Source of the DNA: Branchiostoma floridae
Taxonomy: Eukaryota; Chordata; Leptocardii; Amphioxiformes; Branchiostomatidae
DNA: 64,000 nt
Reading direction: 5' to 3'
NCBI RefSeq assembly: GCF_000003815.2
Contig: NC_049990.1
Location: forward strand, 4,403,803-4,467,802
In this document: in pieces, positions 16,772-37,789 of the stretch
How the letters are laid out: each line of letters begins with the position of its first letter
Numbering within the stretch: position 1 is the stretch's first letter
Notes under the pieces: model-generated
What the model saw: the letters and a program-made list of their open reading frames with translations, nothing else
The model's database searches: none
What the model was told of the DNA's origin: nothing
Position numbers and translations under genes: made by a program

Positions 16772-17389
16772 CTAAGTAAGCGTGGGTAGGGGGAGGGACG
16801 CACGCCTCGGTGTGTTATTATGGGTTCCCTCGCCTGGCATCACCCATGGCCAGTAGGTGTTAGGCAGTGTGGCGAGTGGGAGGGACGAACGCCGTGGAGT
16901 GGTATGGGTTCCCTGCACGGGTATCTCCCATGGCCAGTAGGTGTTAGGCAGTGTGGGTAGGGGGAGGGACGCACGTCGTGGGGTGCTACGGGTACCCTGC
17001 GCTGTGGTCTCACATGGCCAGTAGGTGTTGGACAGTGTGGGGACGGGGAGGGACGCATGCCGTGGTGTGTTACGGGTTCCCTGCTCTGTAATCTCCCATG
17101 GCCAGTAGGTGTTAGGCAGTGTGGGTAGGGGGAGGGACGCACGCCGTGGTGTGTTACGGGTTCCCTTCCCAGGGATCGCCCATGGCCAGTAGGTGTTAGG
17201 CAGTGTGGGTAGGGGGAGGGACGCACGCCGTGGTGTGTTACGGGTTCCCTTCCCAGGGATCGCCCATGGCCAGTAGGTGTTAGGCAGTGTGGGTAGGGGG
17301 AGGGAAGCACGCCGTGGTGTGTTACGGGGTCCCAACCCTGGGGTCTCCCATTGCCAGTAGGAGTTAGACGAGATGGGAAGAAATCGTCG
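16772..17389 (-). repeat. 84-bp coding tandem array (28-residue units)
   Basis: About seven units of 84 bp; each reads ASLPLPTLPNTYWPW, then a variable GxGT segment, then NTPRR. Two central units are identical in protein. The first unit (from residue 844) is the most divergent. Because 84 is a multiple of three, a second minus-strand frame (17310-16840) is also open; it is a by-product. Confidence 0.95.
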
Positions 17390-19918
17390 CCGTGTTATAC
17401 TTTGGGCTCCCTCCCCTGAGTTGGCATATAACAGAAACGTATGAGTACCATATGCTCTAACACAATAGTGCCTAACTATCATGGGCAGGCTATACATAAC
17501 AAGTCTACCAGAAGTAGGCTGAGGACTTTGCAAAGTAGTGCAGTTTCCCCGGTAGGTTTGAAAGTTCTGCCTAGTTTTTGTAACTGTAGGAAGCGAAGGC
17601 TCTGCAGCAGCACTGTAAAAGGGAATGGGTTCATCATCGGGACTCTCTAAGATGTTACGGTCTGAGACGTCTAAGGAATGACCGAGGTCAGGTAGGGACT
17701 CGCAAGACTCTGTGGCATCTTGGACCTCCTGCCGTGTACGTCTTACGACAGGAAGCGTGTTATTCCATGGCAAAAGTGGGAAGGCAGGCAGAGGCCGCTG
17801 AGCAAGAGCTAAATGATCTGGGATCTCTGCGTAGGTGTGCGGAAATGCCGATAGAGGCCGCCGAGCAAGAGTTAGATGATCTGGGATCTCTGCGTATGTG
17901 TGGGGAAAGGCAGGCAGAGGCCGCTGAGCAAGAGCTAAATGATCTGGGATCTCTGCGTATGTGTGGGGAAGGGCAGGCAGGGGCCTTTGAGCAGCAGCCA
18001 GATGATCTGGGATCTCAGCGTAGTCATGTTGGAGGGTAGGCACTATGTCATCCGAGCTCCTCCGGTACACGGACTGAACAGATTGGAGGGCCGAAGGCAT
18101 TGCGGTACAGGCGACAAGACCAGGAATTGTCGCTATTTGTCCATTGTTAGCATCCATGTGGTTCTGTGGCCTGTTCCCTTTTCTTAACTTCGGCAGGCAC
18201 ATCTTCAGCAGAAATCCCAAAGAGAGGAACAAGATCGTAATGCCTACGACTGAAACAACAACTGGGATGACAGGGAACTTTGGTGATGGGGTGAATTGGT
18301 TAAGATTGGTTTGGAGAGTGCCCAGCTGCAATGTGGATGTCATTGTGGCCAGATTTGGAAGTGTCAGAGATCTTAACTCTTCTGCTGTTTGGGACCTTGT
18401 GCTGGGCTTGGGTGTTTGAAAGTTTGTTTCGTCTTTGTCGCTTTTGTGCACAGGGCATGCTTTGTGGAGCCTTTTCGGGACTGAGGGAATGTCTATGGAT
18501 AATGGGGCTTGCTTGTGTTTCGATAGGACGATACAAGTTAGATTGACGCTATCTGTGTGGTCACTGTCTGAGTTGGGTCTTGCTTTGTTTTCGTTTGAAT
18601 GGCCGACTGACTCTGCGGTGCTGACTATTTTCGTGTCTGGTGTGTCGTCAACCAGAATGGCAACATCTGCCTCGGTTGCGTTCCCTACACCCAAGGAAAC
18701 CAGCTGTACCGTAGAGTTATCCTTCAAAGCCACTGTAACGCCCAGGTTGTGTTCCCACACCCGTCTGCACTTTTCTCGGTACGAATGGTTGCTGGGGCCC
18801 CCCATTTCTGGGTTATCATTGGTAGCAATGACGACAAAACGTGTCAGAATGATTTGGTTTGGTTGAGGTTCGGTTAACTCGTCACAAGACGTAGGAATTT
18901 TAATGTATTCTGATGTGCGAGGCGCAACATCTTTTGAGTTAAACCTCCACGAAAACGACTTCTTGTTCCCTCCTGGGTTAATCCTGATACAGAAGGTGAA
19001 GCTGGGCACCTCAACAGATGTGAATAGCTTGTATGGTTGGAATTTGTCTATTTGCTGATACTGCGTGATTTGGCTTTCGTGCATTGAAACGATCCATTTC
19101 AATTTATGTGGCGTTTCATCGTGCACTGTTGTCAAGCTGTTACCACTGGCATAGAAGACTGCCCGATTCAGTGCCTGTCCCCTCAATACCCCCCAGTCAA
19201 GGCAGGACAGAGCACTTCTCTCTAGGTATAGTTCAAACAGACTCATGTTCTTGAACGTGCTTGGAGGAATGGTCTTAATGTCATTTCCCCCCAAGTACAG
19301 TTGCATCAGTGTTGTTTGGCCAAGGAACCAGGCGGGGTCTACGACCTGTAACGCGTTGTTCTCCAGGCCAAGGAAAAGAAGCCACGGCATGTTTCTGAAG
19401 CACCCTGGGTCAATCTGCGCTATTCGGTTATTGGATAAGGTTAGAAAACTAAGGGTCTCTAAACCGGTGAACCAGCTCTGTTTGACATGTGTCAGCCTGT
19501 TGAAATCTAGACTCAGATATTTCAGGTCTGAAAACCCAATCATCGTATTGTCCTCCAAATCTGAGATTTCATCCTCAATCAGAACCAAGGCTTTTACTGA
19601 TGACCGTTCAAATGATGGCATTTTCTTTCCTGATAGTACACCGAGTGGAGTTCCCCTGATGGCAAATGCTGTTTGTATGCCTAGCAAGCAGGGTACAGTA
19701 GGGATGGGAGTATTGCTGACACTAACAGTGCTATGTTGTTTGCATAAGATGCATGTACCCGATTGGTACAGAAGCATTTCGAGCATCGAGTCATCTAAAC
19801 ATTGCGACCAGCTCGCTTTTGCACAGCGAGGGAAGCAGAAACCTGCCGAGGCTGCCCCAGCAGTCACAAGGAACAGAGCAAATAGCATGGGTATGTTCGC
19901 CCCTGTTCTAAGAGCCAT
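16772..19918 (-). CDS. intronless LRR transmembrane receptor with motif-array tail
   Basis: A single exon of 1048 codons from a true ATG. Residues 1-25 form a signal peptide, and a Cys-rich LRR N-cap follows (Cys 28, 32, 40, 57, 60, 77). About six leucine-rich repeats span 108-250 (for example LKYLSLDFNRLTHV, LSFLTLSNNRIAQI). A Cys-containing ectodomain with several N-glycosylation sequons runs to about 545, and one membrane helix covers about 548-574, followed by a basic stop-transfer KLRKGNR. The tail holds four 21-residue units (632-714) with YAEIPDHL and RPLPAFP cores. It ends in an array of 28-residue units (844-1048) with PRRASLPLPTLPNTYWPW cores. I infer a cell-surface recognition receptor signalling through adaptor binding. 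No ortholog is recognised; this could be a lineage-specific gene. The stop lies at a low-quality edge and may be artificial. Confidence 0.88.
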   Translation of the reverse strand: MALRTGANIPMLFALFLVTAGAASAGFCFPRCAKASWSQCLDDSMLEMLLYQSGTCILCKQHSTVSVSNTPIPTVPCLLGIQTAFAIRGTPLGVLSGKKMPSFERSSVKALVLIEDEISDLEDNTMIGFSDLKYLSLDFNRLTHVKQSWFTGLETLSFLTLSNNRIAQIDPGCFRNMPWLLFLGLENNALQVVDPAWFLGQTTLMQLYLGGNDIKTIPPSTFKNMSLFELYLERSALSCLDWGVLRGQALNRAVFYASGNSLTTVHDETPHKLKWIVSMHESQITQYQQIDKFQPYKLFTSVEVPSFTFCIRINPGGNKKSFSWRFNSKDVAPRTSEYIKIPTSCDELTEPQPNQIILTRFVVIATNDNPEMGGPSNHSYREKCRRVWEHNLGVTVALKDNSTVQLVSLGVGNATEADVAILVDDTPDTKIVSTAESVGHSNENKARPNSDSDHTDSVNLTCIVLSKHKQAPLSIDIPSVPKRLHKACPVHKSDKDETNFQTPKPSTRSQTAEELRSLTLPNLATMTSTLQLGTLQTNLNQFTPSPKFPVIPVVVSVVGITILFLSLGFLLKMCLPKLRKGNRPQNHMDANNGQIATIPGLVACTAMPSALQSVQSVYRRSSDDIVPTLQHDYAEIPDHLAAAQRPLPALPHTYAEIPDHLALAQRPLPAFPHTYAEIPDHLTLARRPLSAFPHTYAEIPDHLALAQRPLPAFPLLPWNNTLPVVRRTRQEVQDATESCESLPDLGHSLDVSDRNILESPDDEPIPFYSAAAEPSLPTVTKTRQNFQTYRGNCTTLQSPQPTSGRLVMYSLPMIVRHYCVRAYGTHTFLLYANSGEGAQSITRRRFLPISSNSYWQWETPGLGPRNTPRRASLPLPTLPNTYWPWAIPGKGTRNTPRRASLPLPTLPNTYWPWAIPGKGTRNTPRRASLPLPTLPNTYWPWEITEQGTRNTPRHASLPVPTLSNTYWPCETTAQGTRSTPRRASLPLPTLPNTYWPWEIPVQGTHTTPRRSSLPLATLPNTYWPWVMPGEGTHNNTPRRASLPLPTLT
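17777..18025 (-). repeat. 63-bp coding tandem array (YAEI + RPLPxxP units)
   Basis: Four units of about 63 bp code YAEIPDHLAAAQRPLPALP and close variants (one unit has ARRPLSAFP). The plus-strand frame over this stretch is its antisense shadow. Confidence 0.95.
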
Positions 19919-20097
19919 TACGTATGTCTCCTTGAAGCTGATAGAGGGGAACGTTGCGGCACTAACCTGGTTAGCTTTTTGGCAAAGGAGGAGGAGGAGG
20001 ACCAGCGAAATGTGGCCGCGGACAGAAGATGTGCTTGTCCGTCTGGCGGGGAAGTCGTGGCACCCTTAGACTGCAGTACTTCCTCTGCCTGTCCTGC

Positions 20098-25080: not shown

Positions 25081-25778
25081 TATAGCTCAGTGCCTAAAGT
25101 TAATATTTTGTTTTACTTGCATATACATTAGCATAGTACAGAATTCTTAAAAGGCATTATTAAAAGGAAATAGGAAAGTGACACTTTTGCCTTATCTTTG
25201 CTGCCAAACTCCATAATAAATACAACTTGCTGCCAAAAAAGTATCTTGGAAGGTTTGCAAAAACATTCCAATGTTGCATATACGTCTAAGTAACTTTTAG
25301 TTGACTCATTACTCTCATATCTTACACTAGAACACTGCAACACTTGGTGTAACCAATTCAACATTGTACCTGCAGTTAATTTGAAACTTACTATGATACA
25401 CATTGCACATACAAGAAGGAACTGTTATGCAATTTTCTGCACATAGGGAATGACAACTTCATTGATTCAACTGTCTTAATTACACATCAGTATGTGCACA
25501 TCACAAAACAATCTCTGGACAAATGACATAAGCATTAACGGTTTGCTATTTAACCTTATTTTGAGACAAATGTATGTTTATAATGTCACTAGGGTGGATA
25601 ATGGTTTGTCTTAATCAGGTACAACTCTAGGTTTAGGTCCAGAGGTCCAGGTTTAGGTCTGGACCTGAGCCTGTCTAGTTGAAATGTCTGGTTCTGTTAA
25701 ACCATAATAATGTTGATATTTGAATGTTGACATTTGCACTTATTTTTGACACTTTTTTATTAGTTGCCAACAAGCAAG

Positions 25779-25954
25779 TGTAACAGTGGTGTTCAAGGAC
25801 TGCTAAACCGAAGACGCCTAACGGCTTAAGCCTTTTGGCCGAACGGTTTGCACGTTCCATTTGTGATCCGGCTGCCCGGGTTTGGCGCGGGTTCGAATCC
25901 CGGGAGTCGGGGTGTTGTTTCTTTCTGTTCTTACTCGCCCCTCTGGTTGTTTCA
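25779..25954 (+). repeat. 5' LTR of miniature element, with A box and B box
   Basis: TGGCCGAACGG (25836-25846) matches the tRNA A-box consensus of Ser/Leu-type tRNAs, and GGTTCGAATCC (25890-25900) is a perfect B box; start-to-start spacing is 54 bp. The flanks do not form a tRNA acceptor stem, so this is a Pol III promoter-like module and not a tRNA gene. Confidence 0.8.
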
Positions 25955-26058
25955 ATGGTTCCCACGCCGGCCCTGTGATTAACAGGCTAGTATGTGCCAC
26001 ACAGGGATGTCGATCTCGGAGATTCGAGGACGAATCTTGAAAAGAAAAGGGGGAGTAG

Positions 26059-26234
26059 TGTAACAGTGGTGTTCAAGGACTGCTAAACCGAAGACGCCTA
26101 ACGGCTTAAGCCTTTTGGCCGAACGGTTTGCACGTTCCATTTGTGATCCGGCTGCCCGGGTTTGGCGCGGGTTCGAATCCCGGGAGTCGGGGTGTTGTTT
26201 CTTTCTGTTCTTACTCGCCCCTCTGGTTGTTTCA
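26059..26234 (+). repeat. 3' LTR of miniature element, with A box and B box
   Basis: Same sequence as the 5' LTR, shifted by 280 bp. A box at 26116-26126 and B box at 26170-26180. Followed by the CAAG target duplication. Confidence 0.85.
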
Positions 26235-26974
26235 CAAGCATAAGTAAAATTAAAAACCACTTTTATGTTCTTCAAACATAAGCTAGAAGAATGTTTATTC
26301 ATTTATCCCCTATAAGTTGTCTTGATAAAAACTTTCCGCTTTTTTGTCTCTCTTCACACCTTTCAGGATTTCTGGACTCAATTCTACGGTGTTGTACCAT
26401 GTCTGGACCAGATCCAGTGAACCGGTACCAACCCTTATAATTATCTGCAACACATTCCCTTCTCAAGAAAGCCCCAATTTGCTTTCATGAACGTATAAGA
26501 AGTCTCTGTCTTTTGGGCAGAAGGTATTATGTTCCTCTAACTGTTGAATTGCATACATGCACTACATAAATCTGTACAACTGTGTTGCATGCTTTTGTTC
26601 CTTCATTTTACATTAAGTAACGTTAGGTCATGAAAATCTCTGATTGCATCTGTCATATTACAGCTCAACAACACTCACTATTCCGTCATACTCTATCATC
26701 TGTTGCTACCCGAATTAGACATGCTTGCACATAGATGTAGAGGCTTGATGGCAGCCCGCCATCAGCTTCTGTTTCAAGTTGTAATGACCCAAAGCCTATG
26801 TCACATATCCAGACCCAAAGTGTGACATCAACAAAGGGTCAAAGGTGCTTGGTCCGAGACGGAGGCCGATACTGACTTCCAAGCATGACCCTTTGCTGAC
26901 ACGACACTTTCGGTTTTGGGTCATTACAACTTCAAAAGGATCAGAGGAGTGATCAAAAGCTTGTTGGTGAGCGC

Positions 26975-34069: not shown

Positions 34070-36665
34070 GTTTGTGTGTGTGTGTATGTGTATGTGTGTG
34101 TGTGTGAGTGTGTGTTTGTACATATGTAAATTTATACGTATTCATGTATGTAACGTTATATGTACATTTATCAAATTTTACGCGTGCAAAAAAAGTTAAA
34201 CATAAGATATGCCGATGTATTCACTTATCACAGAGGGGTTCATTAAACTTCCGTTTGAAAACGATGATTTATTGAAAAAAGTGGCAAACTCGGGGTCCCT
34301 CCCGTTACATGTGTATGTGAGTGTCTGTGTAGGAATGTATGTGTCTGTGTCACCCTAAATATATAATGTTGATGTATGTATGTGTGTGTGTGTGTGTGTG
34401 TGAGTGAATGCTAATGTAGACAGCATATTTTCTTTTCCAAAACAGATCTATATATAATACACATTTCAGTGATATCATTACCTTTTCAAGAATAGCCATA
34501 AACATAGGTAAAACAGAAAAAAGTTACCCAATAACCAGAAATAACAGAAAAACAACTGGAGGTACCTCGATCTGAGTGGTACTGACAGAGGAGAATCAGG
34601 ACTACACACAGAAACACAGGGAAGAAAAATAGAAGATCAGACAAGAAATGGAAGATCTCATACCTCAATGAAATACATTCACAGTTTTTATGAATTTCTT
34701 GACAAAATGTTGTAATTGCAGACATTTTCGCGTTTGTTTTATATTCGCAGTTTTCGTGGTGGCCGCTGAACCGTCAACTTAAAAACACCTCAAATATCAT
34801 AACACAGTATGCGACTACAGTACAACAGTACTGTAAATAAGTTTGTGGTATGGCGCTACCGCGAAAAATAAAAACACCGCGAACACCCCATTTTCCCACC
34901 GGTGCAAACTTAAATCCCCGCAAAATTAAATGCATTTACAGTATTAAACAACCCTAGCCTGGGTACCAACTGATTTCTAAAGGGGGCTCCTTGTACTTTT
35001 TTTTAGGGCAGCGCATGCAAGGAGCCCAAGGTAGAAATCGGATGGTAATCAGGCTGGTTACAGGGGTAGATAAAAAAATTGGCAGATAAAAATAAGTACC
35101 ATGGCATTTGACATCTGAAGACTCCTTGACCTCCTTGGTGACCTGTTCCTCCACAGATTCAGCAGGAGTGTTCGAGTTTTCCTCTGCATCCTCCTCGCCA
35201 CTGTCGACCTCTGGGTTCCAGACCACGACGGAAACGCCGACCCTTTTTGTTCCGACGGGAAGCTTGTCCAGACTGACTCTCAGTGGGAAGACTACGGTGT
35301 CATCTGATACAGTCACTGGGTCCTCACCCTGGAATATGATATTTTTCTTATTTGTTTTGTAGAATGTTGGAAAAAATTGGACATAATGACAACACACATT
35401 GTCTTCTAAATGCTCTAAACATGAAAGAAGTTGGAAGTTTCATCATGTGTGGAAAAATGACAGTTGTATATGAATATATAAAAGAACAGTATATTATATA
35501 CATGTACAATGATAATATTGTACTATAATTTCTATGTAACACTAATTTAAGCATAAAAATATAACGTTATCTTTAATTCAATTTTGAAACAGAGTTCTTT
35601 TTTTATTGGTAATAACTAATGCCTTTAAGGTGGTTTATTTAGCCCTTTCGACCACGCTCTAACAGTACTTAAGGTGTGCAAACTTGATGTAATGTTGATG
35701 ATCTACATGACCTTAGCACTAATAAGTCATTTATAATGGGGCAACGTTTTTATGGCAAACAGAAAAAAATTAAAACAAGTTAACGTTACACCTGTCCAGC
35801 TTTATAGGGATTACTTGTCATCAGATAACATACATAATAGAGTAGAGTAGAGTGACAATGTAGACATTAAAACCATTCTTACAGTAATACTTATTAAAAA
35901 CACTGAATCTTCACTTCCATTCATAACAAGGCGTATTAAATCGATACAAAGATAAGAGGGCAAATAAAAAGGGTAAGAGGGCCACGCCCCCGTGCCCTTA
36001 GAGTGGGCGTGACTCCTCAATGTGTCCGCGGAATGTAAACAAACAATAGTCCACGTGGTAATGTTTTCCTTGTCGGTGGGAAACACGATTATGATCGGAT
36101 ATCCGGGAGAATCGTGTCACATTTGTCCCGCTGTGGGGTCGATTCGTAAGGCTAGGTCCGGGATTTGCGCCACGGTCGCCAGAAAAAATGGCGCGCTGTA
36201 ACAGCTGTGTCCGTTACAACAACACAGGAGGTCGCGAAACGTCAAAACATCTTACCCGGACGGTTATAAAAATGTATGTAACGGCCTACCTACCTTTTCT
36301 GCTTGATCTTTCGCAGAGCTGTTGTGCAGAAGGAGCGGTACACAGTCTCTGAAGTCTTGTTTTCCGTTGGAAACAGGAACAGTCCCCCTCTCCAGGCCCC
36401 CTTCGTGGTGACAAATGTCCTGTGACTGAAACAAACTCGTGGCGGTGGCGGCAGTGCTCAGCTCCAAAACACGGTCCCGCCAGGCACGTATTCTCTCCTC
36501 GTCTCGGTCTTCCTCGCAATACTTGGCGATCAGAAGCACGTCGATGGTCTCTCCCTGGTAGACAAAGTTTCTGCGAGGAGTCTGGGAGAGATTCAGCACG
36601 TCTCCGACCTTGCAGGACGGAAAATGCAGAGAAAATCCTGTTTCCGACCTGCCGTCAGGCGCCAT
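27574..36665 (-). CDS. TRAPPC14: TRAPPC14 / MAP11 (C7orf43 homolog), 12 exons
   Basis: TRAPPC14 is a TRAPP II complex subunit that binds microtubules and supports vesicle transport in ciliogenesis. Minus-strand exons: 36665-36294, 35328-35100, 33966-33880, 33453-33327, 32888-32750, 32131-32037, 31587-31510, 31236-31142, 30661-30583, 30127-30058, 28518-28286, 27730-27574. Every phase agrees, giving 586 aa against about 580 in human. Family landmarks in order: PRRNFVYQGETIDVLL, VVFPLRVSLDKLPVGT, FPLLPPPLVKCRKVSVGRKH, YTLVNNLQDFLTIKLVWSPE, SVVCHTPSYNLG, LRPGLFEVGQHMKLKLQF, a Ser/Pro-rich linker, and the C-terminal PVLSLDKIMKHNCKVYVMEP. I chose the exon 7 donor at 31509 because only it keeps the VGQRFDVKY reading frame. 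Complete and apparently intact. Confidence 0.94.
28570..28778. mobile_element. MITE family A, copy 2, in TRAPPC14 intron
   Basis: TACTGTAAATGC / GCATTTACAGTA inverted ends; interior AACTTAAAACCACTGCGAAC. Starts about 52 bp upstream of the exon 11 acceptor. Confidence 0.8.
28840..28925. mobile_element. fragment of MITE family B
   Basis: AGGGATACTAAATCGACAAACGG followed by GTTTCAAATTGCAAATATTTTCAAAAT matches the inner hairpin of the complete copies at 55706 and 58287. Ends missing. Confidence 0.5.
29318..29450. repeat. dispersed repeat fragment (ACTCAAGCAA..GATATGATTTT)
   Basis: AATTACTCAAGCAAATG.ATATGATTTT and TGGATGTC.AACCTTC recur in the same order at 31018-31100. Unclassified. Confidence 0.45.
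29646..30030. mobile_element. MITE family C, copy 2 (385 bp)
   Basis: AGCCTGGGTATCATCTGGTA with TAGTAGTTCGCTCC at the left is inverted against GAGCGAACTACTACCTGGATGGTACCCAGGCT-type sequence at the right. Interior unique, GC-richer (29720-29900), no recognised protein. The element ends 28 bp from the donor of TRAPPC14 exon 10. Confidence 0.75.
31654..31868. mobile_element. MITE-like element in TRAPPC14 intron 6
   Basis: CAGGGATGTCTCCAG at the left is imperfectly inverted against CTGGAGACTGTCCTG at the right; the interior also has paired CGTCCCACTC and AGGACGGG-type pieces. Confidence 0.5.
32199..32339. mobile_element. short retroposed fragment with 12-bp target duplication
   Basis: AGATCTAAGCAT occurs at 32187-32198 and again at 32340-32351, bracketing 141 bp that end in a GA-rich AAGCCAAGCCAAGAGAGAGAG tail. 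The interior CGTATTGGACTCATCAGCCAC resembles coding sequence for an IGLISH zinc-finger segment found in some LINE polyproteins. Probably a LINE or SINE copy inserted by target-primed reverse transcription. Confidence 0.6.
32420..32735 (-). pseudogene. two decayed copies of the TRAPPC14 exon 5 end plus donor
   Basis: The exon 5 end and splice donor (AACTCACCTCATACTTGCC.GCATTCCAGTTGTC.TTGAC on the plus strand, 32743-32790) recur at 32592-32640 and, weaker, at 32438-32475. The flanking GATGG.GGCCATGTT.TGGCTTACCTTCCCT is also repeated. The copies lie in the intron immediately downstream of the true exon. Confidence 0.8.
34031..34125. repeat. (TG)n microsatellite
   Basis: A long TG run with a few interruptions in TRAPPC14 intron 2. 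A second shorter run is at 34379-34402. Confidence 0.95.
34711..34943. mobile_element. MITE family A, copy 3
   Basis: TGTAATTGCAGACATTTTCGCG at the left and CAAAATTAAATGCATTTACAGTA at the right; interior ACCGCGAA motifs and TATGCGACTACAGTA as in copy 2. Directly followed by a family C element. Confidence 0.75.
34956..35055. mobile_element. MITE family C, short foldback copy 3
   Basis: AGCCTGGGTACCAACTGATTTCTA inverted against TAGAAATCGGATGGTAATCAGGCT, with a further GGGCTCCTTG/CAAGGAGCCC pair inside; 100 bp. It ends about 43 bp from the donor of TRAPPC14 exon 2. Confidence 0.75.
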
Positions 36666-37789
36666 GACTTCTCACTGGGGGCTCCGCAAATTTCGGTACG
36701 TCCCATGTGAACTTTCCTCCGCCTAGAAAACTCACTCAACCAATCTCACCAAAAACGTATTTCATAACCTTAAATCATGCAAAAAATGCTATCTAGTAAC
36801 TTTTATTTGGTATTTTGATGTATTAGTATTGTTTTTAATGCGAGAAATCGAGGTAATATCTATCAGGGATGGTTTGCGGCGGTCAGTCCGTTTGGGTCCT
36901 CGCGTATTGATCGCTCTCTGGTGGACAGGAAGGGGACAAGTAGGTGGTTTCGTACTTATTTCTACCATTTCTGATCCCTTCGCAAATCACTCCATCTGCT
37001 TTGTCTTGGTCGCAGTGGCTTGCCGAGGACTATAGCTAGCTCTACCGTTAATTTTCTTGGCGAGCGGCGTTGCAAACGGGTGAAAACCCCTCCCGAACAT
37101 TGCAGAGCGCTCGAATCTCACACCCGCCTAAAGGATGGCCCGATCAGATGGTCGGACTGAAGGGGGTGATATTTTCTCGCTCCTTGCTCTATCGCTATAA
37201 CTTCCAGCGATATCTTTGGATGCAAACGGCTTCTTTGCTTCACCTTTTCTTCTGTATAGTGTGTACAAGGGATAGTTTTAACGGTAGGCGATTGTGATCA
37301 CAATGCTAGGCTCACAAAGTGCTGTATAGTAGATATACACCCTCCCCCATCCTCATGCATACATGCATGTGCAATACGTTATACTGTCGGAGCAAAAATG
37401 GGTGGGGCATCGCTTTCTCCTACCCAGCGTCTTCATCTCTATGTCTACTTCCTTACGTCTTAGTCCCTCTGCGTTTGTTTCTTGGAATTTCTTGCTAAGG
37501 TTTGCCTTGTCTTGAGCTATTTAGTCACGCTTGGCCACATATTAAATGCATCAACGGGAGATATGTTATAATAATAATGATATCGCTGGCAATCTCGTAT
37601 CACGGCGTGCAAAGTGATGCATTTTTCATGGCTGGACTTAAAGGCCCAACAAGATCTGAAATGTCTTATTTCGATCTTATTGCATTTCTCAATTGGAATC
37701 GTGGCGAGAATGCCGAGCGGCCCGGTTCGCGGTCGTGGCCGCAGTTGGCATTGATTATTTAAGGGATCAGCGATTATCCGAGTACTTTG
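36666..37789. other. region upstream of TRAPPC14
   Basis: Promoter-side DNA of TRAPPC14. I see no TATA box or clear initiator. The 36100-36260 part inside intron 1 and the 37060-37300 part are somewhat GC-richer. No gene on the other strand is evident. Confidence 0.4.

Follow-up and report, generated by a model that had tools for sequence, protein, structure and literature searches.

A complete miniature LTR element of 456 bp lies at 25779..26234 on the plus strand of the window, which is the whole stretch of 64,000 nt analysed here, inside the 513,431,437-bp Branchiostoma floridae assembly of 431 contigs. Two identical 176-bp LTRs of type I (25779..25954 and 26059..26234, both +) run from TGTAACAG to GTTTCA, that is, with TG..CA ends, and enclose an interior of 104 bp (25955..26058, +). 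The target site duplication (TSD) is CAAG on both sides (25775..25778 and 26235..26238, both +). The direct repeat itself measures 178 nt (25777-25954 and 26057-26234, 100% identical), and its extra AG belongs to the end of the left TSD on one side and to the polypurine tract (PPT) stretch on the other. One base (A, 25955) separates the 5′ LTR from the primer-binding site (PBS) TGGTTCCCACGCCGG at 25956..25970 (+), which can pair with the 3′ terminus of tRNA-Glu(CUC)-CCA, one of the pairs being G.U. The PPT AAAAGAAAAGGGGGAGTAG, with GTAG ahead of the 3′ LTR, occupies 26040..26058 (+). An inverted repeat, AGATTC-GAGGAC-GAATCT, is found at 26020..26037 (+), and its loop is common to the 3′ end region of a Gypsy family described below (family A). 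Elsewhere in the window, a frame of 1096 aa runs without interruption at 16772-20062 (-) and has leucine-rich repeats as well as repeated motifs at its C terminus, and 34957-36671 (-) holds two frames that match the N-terminal domain of TRAPP14.

Each LTR contains a box A, TGGCCGAACGG, at LTR position 58 (25836..25846 and 26116..26126, both +) and a box B, GGTTCGAATCC, at LTR position 112 (25890..25900 and 26170..26180, both +), with a spacing of 54 bp. Box B GGTTCGANTCC occurs twice in the window, both times in these LTRs, with a shuffle mean of 0.05. A palindrome that may form a hairpin, GGCTTAAGCC (25823..25832 in the 5′ LTR, +), adjoins a TTTT at LTR position 55 (25833..25836, +). Its counterpart in the 3′ LTR, hairpin plus TTTT at 26103..26116 (+), is a candidate Pol III terminator and the predicted 3′ end of the RNA. 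The identical TG..CA LTRs, interior, CAAG duplication, primer site one base past the LTR, PPT and boxes 54 bp apart, all described in the original prediction, were confirmed in the window sequence. Its 'Ser/Leu-type' label for box A was not supported: ARAGORN found no tRNA in the whole window and Rfam found none within the LTRs of five copies covering the LTR types. For want of a model hit, a Ser/Leu tRNA origin of the promoter was rejected. The same Rfam scan gave a 14-bit tmRNA-arm match, far under the cut-off, on the box B arm of one copy (L098).

The 456-bp query had at least 46 matches in the genome (40 of 1095 candidates scored). The U5-PBS junction with the U5 end of the window occurred 192 times in the genome (control 6), and the PPT-LTR junction, GTAG followed by the LTR start with at most 2 mismatches, occurred 847 times (control 35). 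The family sample consisted of 60 regions, representing the first 62 of 100 listed U5-PBS places, together with 30 loci that a search with the interior retrieved. The interior, with PBS and PPT, recurred between LTRs in most of the 60 regions, and an exact 4-bp TSD bounded 52 of 67 LTR pairs. Of the 15 pairs that lacked an exact TSD, ten are internal to five arrays of three LTRs with matching outer flanks; the others comprise one pair in array L054 and four with differing flanks (L028, L035, L083, L085). The three-LTR tandem arrays within one matching 4-bp TSD are L033, L046, L067, L081 and L084. The expected multi-copy family with a conserved primer site, PPT and 4-bp TSD was thereby recovered. 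Lone SINEs without the interior, a lack of PBS or PPT and a lack of a family, the outcomes named as speaking against the prediction, were looked for, and no such refutation was found.

A set of 47 elements was defined by an exact TSD and an interior of 95-112 nt. The two LTRs were identical in 13 of them and differed by at most 2 mismatches in 29. This indicates that some of the family's activity was recent, as had been proposed. The first ~25 nt and most of U5 are common to all LTR types, and the LTR halves comprise three box A kinds and two box B kinds. The main U5 ends are of two types, GGTTGTTTCA and AATTTCTACA, and older kin of the family carry additional LTR versions. Altogether, 120 distinct LTR sequences were gathered from 164 copies. 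Because the copies were collected by similarity and are kin to one another, the shuffle tests overstate independence. In 6 of the 47 elements (L011, L014, L071, L074, L076 and L093), the LTR pair was of unlike type or U5 end, which is unexpected under ordinary reverse transcription; the 5′ LTR of L014 additionally carries a deletion.

The TTTT at LTR position 55 was present in four of four reference LTR types and was the first TTTT, at that place, in 68 of the 120 distinct LTRs. A stem adjoined the T-run in 12 of 17 LTR representatives, compared with a shuffled mean of 1.9, and none of 5000 shuffles gave as many; the stem sequence varies between LTR types. This test was anchored and used 17 of 20 LTRs; L105 and L119 were left out as rearranged or cut, and L126 because it lacks a T-run next to box A. 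With L126 counted as a miss, the result was 12/18. The anchored test replaced a MAFFT alignment of the hairpin region, which mis-registered T-runs. The path from the T-run of the 5′ LTR to that of the 3′ LTR was free of TTTT in 43 of 47 elements versus 19% of dinucleotide shuffles; an AAAA control for this test was uninformative because the PPT contains AAAA.

The RNA might instead be made from the LTR by Pol II, as in ordinary TRIMs, with the A and B boxes being a relic or having another role and reverse transcription being unchanged. We consider this unlikely. In its favor, 41 of the 120 distinct LTRs lacked TTTT at the proposed stop (LTR 46-66), where TTTAT, ATTTG, CTTTG and others were found, and the type I version with TTTAT, present in more than 20 distinct LTRs, must have multiplied without TTTT. 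The failure of the tRNA models to recognize the tRNA-like part points the same way. Against it, AATAAA and ATTAAA were absent from all 120 distinct LTRs, and one of them contained a TATA-like motif; by contrast, a poly(A) signal and a TATA-like motif both occur in L100's family A LTR, which lacks a box B core. Box B was intact in 106 of the 120, the path was free of TTTT as described, and most of the older or divergent LTRs inspected had a T-run next to box A (L126 has none and L144 has TTTC). We considered transcription by Pol III, as predicted, the more probable.

The primer tRNA, which the original prediction had left to be sought, was found in read-through copies that include CCA. In 7 of the 60 fetched U5-PBS regions, antisense tRNA-Glu(CUC) replaced the interior beside U5. 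Its first letters, one base past the LTR, are TGG, which is complementary to CCA; in L067 it was matched by the Rfam tRNA model at 56 bits. The LTR-antisense tRNA junction pattern, which itself demands TGG, occurred at 82 places genome-wide (control 0). Forty-six of these places were read, and 28 had a delimited upstream LTR of the TRIM family or its older kin. By BLAST, the tRNA was at least 60 nt long in 22 of the 28 chimeras and all 75 nt were present in 5; an ungapped script gave 18/28 for the former, and the BLAST figure was used. The other 18 places are Gypsy family A (L100, L136, L139), a family B in which the tRNA match is limited to a primer site of 18-20 nt (L133, L140), unassigned or other LTRs (L116, L143), and cut, rearranged or diverged LTRs of the TRIM kind.

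Because the junction pattern demands TGG, a genome-wide search with tRNA plus CCA (at most 3 mismatches) is the fair test. It returned 25 near-full-length tRNA-Glu matches. Ten ended in CCA, and all 10 were joined to an LTR (nine from the TRIM family or its older kin, one from Gypsy A; all already among the junction places). The CCA tail is absent from tRNA genes, and the 15 matches without CCA are probably genes; several of these lie on the window's own contig (G000:C12:3602392-7334218). These genomic read-through copies, in which an LTR runs into an antisense tRNA that includes the CCA tail, show that the primer is tRNA-Glu(CUC). An exact 4-bp TSD right after a U5 end was found in 11 of the 28 chimeras (control 4/750), and under the same test 17 had none. 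The 11 cases indicate that integrase put LTR-tRNA-LTR chimeras into the genome in one piece.

Since tRNA genes are known targets of Ty3-like elements, the junctions could in principle reflect integration beside tRNA-Glu genes instead of primer copying. This is very improbable. The junction falls at the PBS position and is antisense, CCA is present in 10/10 LTR-joined near-full-length copies and in 0/15 others, the tRNA is often shortened and gives way to LTR, U5 or interior, and in 11/28 the chimera as a whole is flanked by TSDs. The targeting of tRNA genes was rejected, as the TSD and CCA results contradict it. There is virtually no chance that two independent tRNA-derived SINEs inserted around unique DNA: each LTR alone does have SINE-like A and B boxes, but a SINE is a single unit without LTRs, PBS or PPT and the element has all three, the ends are TG..CA, and this reading is refuted by the recurrence of the interior, along with PBS and PPT, across most of the 60 regions and by the single TSD that encloses the whole in 52/67 pairs.

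Past the tRNA, the chimeras continue at the LTR start, in the region preceding box A, at the B box, in U5, in the interior or in other DNA. Three read-through landing sites lie at LTR 32-34, and two truncated LTRs begin at 40-42; the other landing sites are LTR 1, 18, 46, 87, 108-112 and U5. The sites at 32-34 and 40-42 fit a nearby RNA start, which is only suggestive. In L112, AG is kept before TGTAACAG after a complete tRNA. We interpret this as what is expected of unprocessed cDNA ends joined via the primer. Mules reportedly described in 1998 Ty1 cDNA with untidy ends and tRNA sequence left on them. Ty1 concerns Copia-type cDNA in yeast, whereas the lancelet chimeras are integrated genomic copies with TSDs. 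No primer-tRNA inclusion in genomic LTR elements was recognized in the literature searched, which was poor in subscription papers.

The suggested search for a Ty3-type partner led to Gypsy-type families A and B, which share LTR ends, primer and PPT with the TRIM. The family A LTR is 512 bp long and reads TGTAACGG..GTTTCA. In L100, the order is ACAA, LTR, A, complete antisense tRNA, CACGTTTCA and ACAA, the last being the TSD repeated. The 3′ end of family A in L147 and L148, and nearly so in L149, is ATTTGAGGACAAATGTT..GAGGGGGAGGTAG joined to TGTAACGG, and the TRIM counterpart is ATTCGAGGACGAATCTT..AAGGGGGAGTAG joined to TGTAACAG. Between the two inverted repeats, the loop GAGGAC is the same, and the arms are changed yet complementary. 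In L136, the family A LTR and tRNA are followed by an integrase-like frame (rve, E 3e-5, below the Pfam cut-off), and the coding match is a 46-aa stretch. Family A LTR matches stood ~7.8 kb apart at three places (40 of 91 candidates scored), and other spacings were also seen. Two family A LTR matches flank the TRIM copy at G000:C10:6247395-6248566, possibly a nested insertion. Family B had 29 matches. It starts TGTAACAGTG after ..GGGGGGTAG, and it has a tRNA-Glu primer site and a 521-bp LTR. The LTR ends in AAATTCTACA, which resembles the second TRIM U5 type, AATTTCTACA. Family B had one LTR pair at ~4.9 kb, and no pol frame was found in the inner piece of it that was read, part of which was N (L146). 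With these LTR ends, each TRIM U5 type resembles one Gypsy family. The shared features, with read-through in family A, suggest that the Gypsy families may supply the TRIM's enzymes.

In this study, we believe that the element is quite probably a young, non-autonomous TRIM of the Helenus kind, with the following mechanism, in which the Pol III part is predicted. The A and B boxes of the 5′ LTR would direct Pol III to start ~10-25 nt upstream of box A, read once round the element and stop at the hairpin and T-run of the 3′ LTR. The resulting RNA would bear a short terminal repeat (R), a short stretch as in Cassandra. Genomic fossils of the family show the next two steps: mature tRNA-Glu(CUC) serves at the PBS as primer for reverse transcription, and the cDNA is inserted by an integrase that cuts with a 4-bp stagger. 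The enzymes would come from Gypsy families with like LTR termini, primer and PPT, of which family A also has tRNA read-through. A difficulty is that the T-run of the 5′ LTR, early in the predicted transcript, must not stop Pol III. The genome retains reverse-transcription intermediates, namely integrated LTRs fused to the mature primer tRNA, in the TRIM and a Gypsy family alike. For an LTR element of the Pol III type, the primer, the helper and the strand transfers thereby become testable from sequence, and the hairpin with T-run gives a precise transcript prediction. The Pol III promoter might also be renewed from the primer, if reverse transcriptase switched templates, using element cDNA and packaged tRNA-Glu in turn, at the B-box/T-arm that both have in common. 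We give this idea little credence; if true, LTRs would acquire fresh tRNA halves, which would explain why A and B halves are interchangeable among the LTR types.

TRIMs whose LTRs hold a tRNA-like Pol III promoter were already known, contrary to what the original prediction had supposed. According to the available text of Kojima (2024, PMC10886601), Helenus comprises such TRIMs in fungi, animals and one plant. They are 311-1263 bp long, with box A and B in the LTRs, PBS and PPT; in animals the TSD is 4 bp, the PBS is Gypsy-like, several families occur per genome, and LTR-11_DR has tandem arrays. Members were chosen by similarity to tRNA or SINE2 and by structure, and tRNAscan-SE was also applied. 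On these descriptions, our element is like Helenus as a 456-bp, non-coding TRIM with two LTRs and a 104-bp interior. Helenus box A TRGCY..YGG and box B GGTTC are here TGGCC..CGG and GGTTC, and the PBS, PPT, 4-bp TSD in 52/67 LTR pairs and tandem arrays also agree. It differs in that its LTRs are unrecognized by the tRNA models, a criterion that we treated as non-defining.

The architecture is thus already known, being covered by Helenus as that text describes it. The genomic primer fossils, the matches to putative Gypsy helpers in B. floridae and the terminator-like hairpin are new as far as our searches tell. Kojima did not settle what moves animal Helenus, beyond PBS similarity to Gypsy (PMC10886601); here, read-through copies identify tRNA-Glu as the primer, and Gypsy families match at both LTR ends and the PPT. 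Lancelets are unmentioned in its main text, and the supplementary tables may hold a lancelet family; a text search found no discussion of a terminator-like hairpin and T-run for Helenus (PMC10886601), a feature that here stands beside box A. No amphioxus TRIMs were among the literature matches listed, and the later Helenus work found was one meeting report. Cassandra, in the portions of the sources available, is a plant TRIM with a 5S rRNA promoter in the LTR (PMC7215508, PMC10886601), whose transcript starts in one LTR and stops in the other with an 18-bp terminal repeat (PMC10886601). So described, it is like our element in the Pol III promoter in the LTR (predicted here), the tandem arrays and the start and stop in opposite LTRs (putative here), and unlike it in the 5S rRNA promoter and plant host; the scan of five copies gave no 5S rRNA match with an E value of 1 or less.

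Several rearranged copies were also observed. In L119, L123, L142 and L143, an inverted LTR follows the antisense tRNA, and these may be fold-back products. L143 represents a further LTR family with antisense tRNA-Glu; its U5 end CTGTTTCTACTCCTTTCTTACA is shared with the older TRIM copy L110 and, less exactly, with another older copy, L132. In L105, the stretch 1408-1860 is rearranged. A full sense tRNA-Glu (Rfam, 34.9 bits) is joined to U5, followed by an antisense tRNA and then by direct and inverted LTR pieces, and the B half of the inverted LTR reads like the 3′ half of tRNA-Glu.
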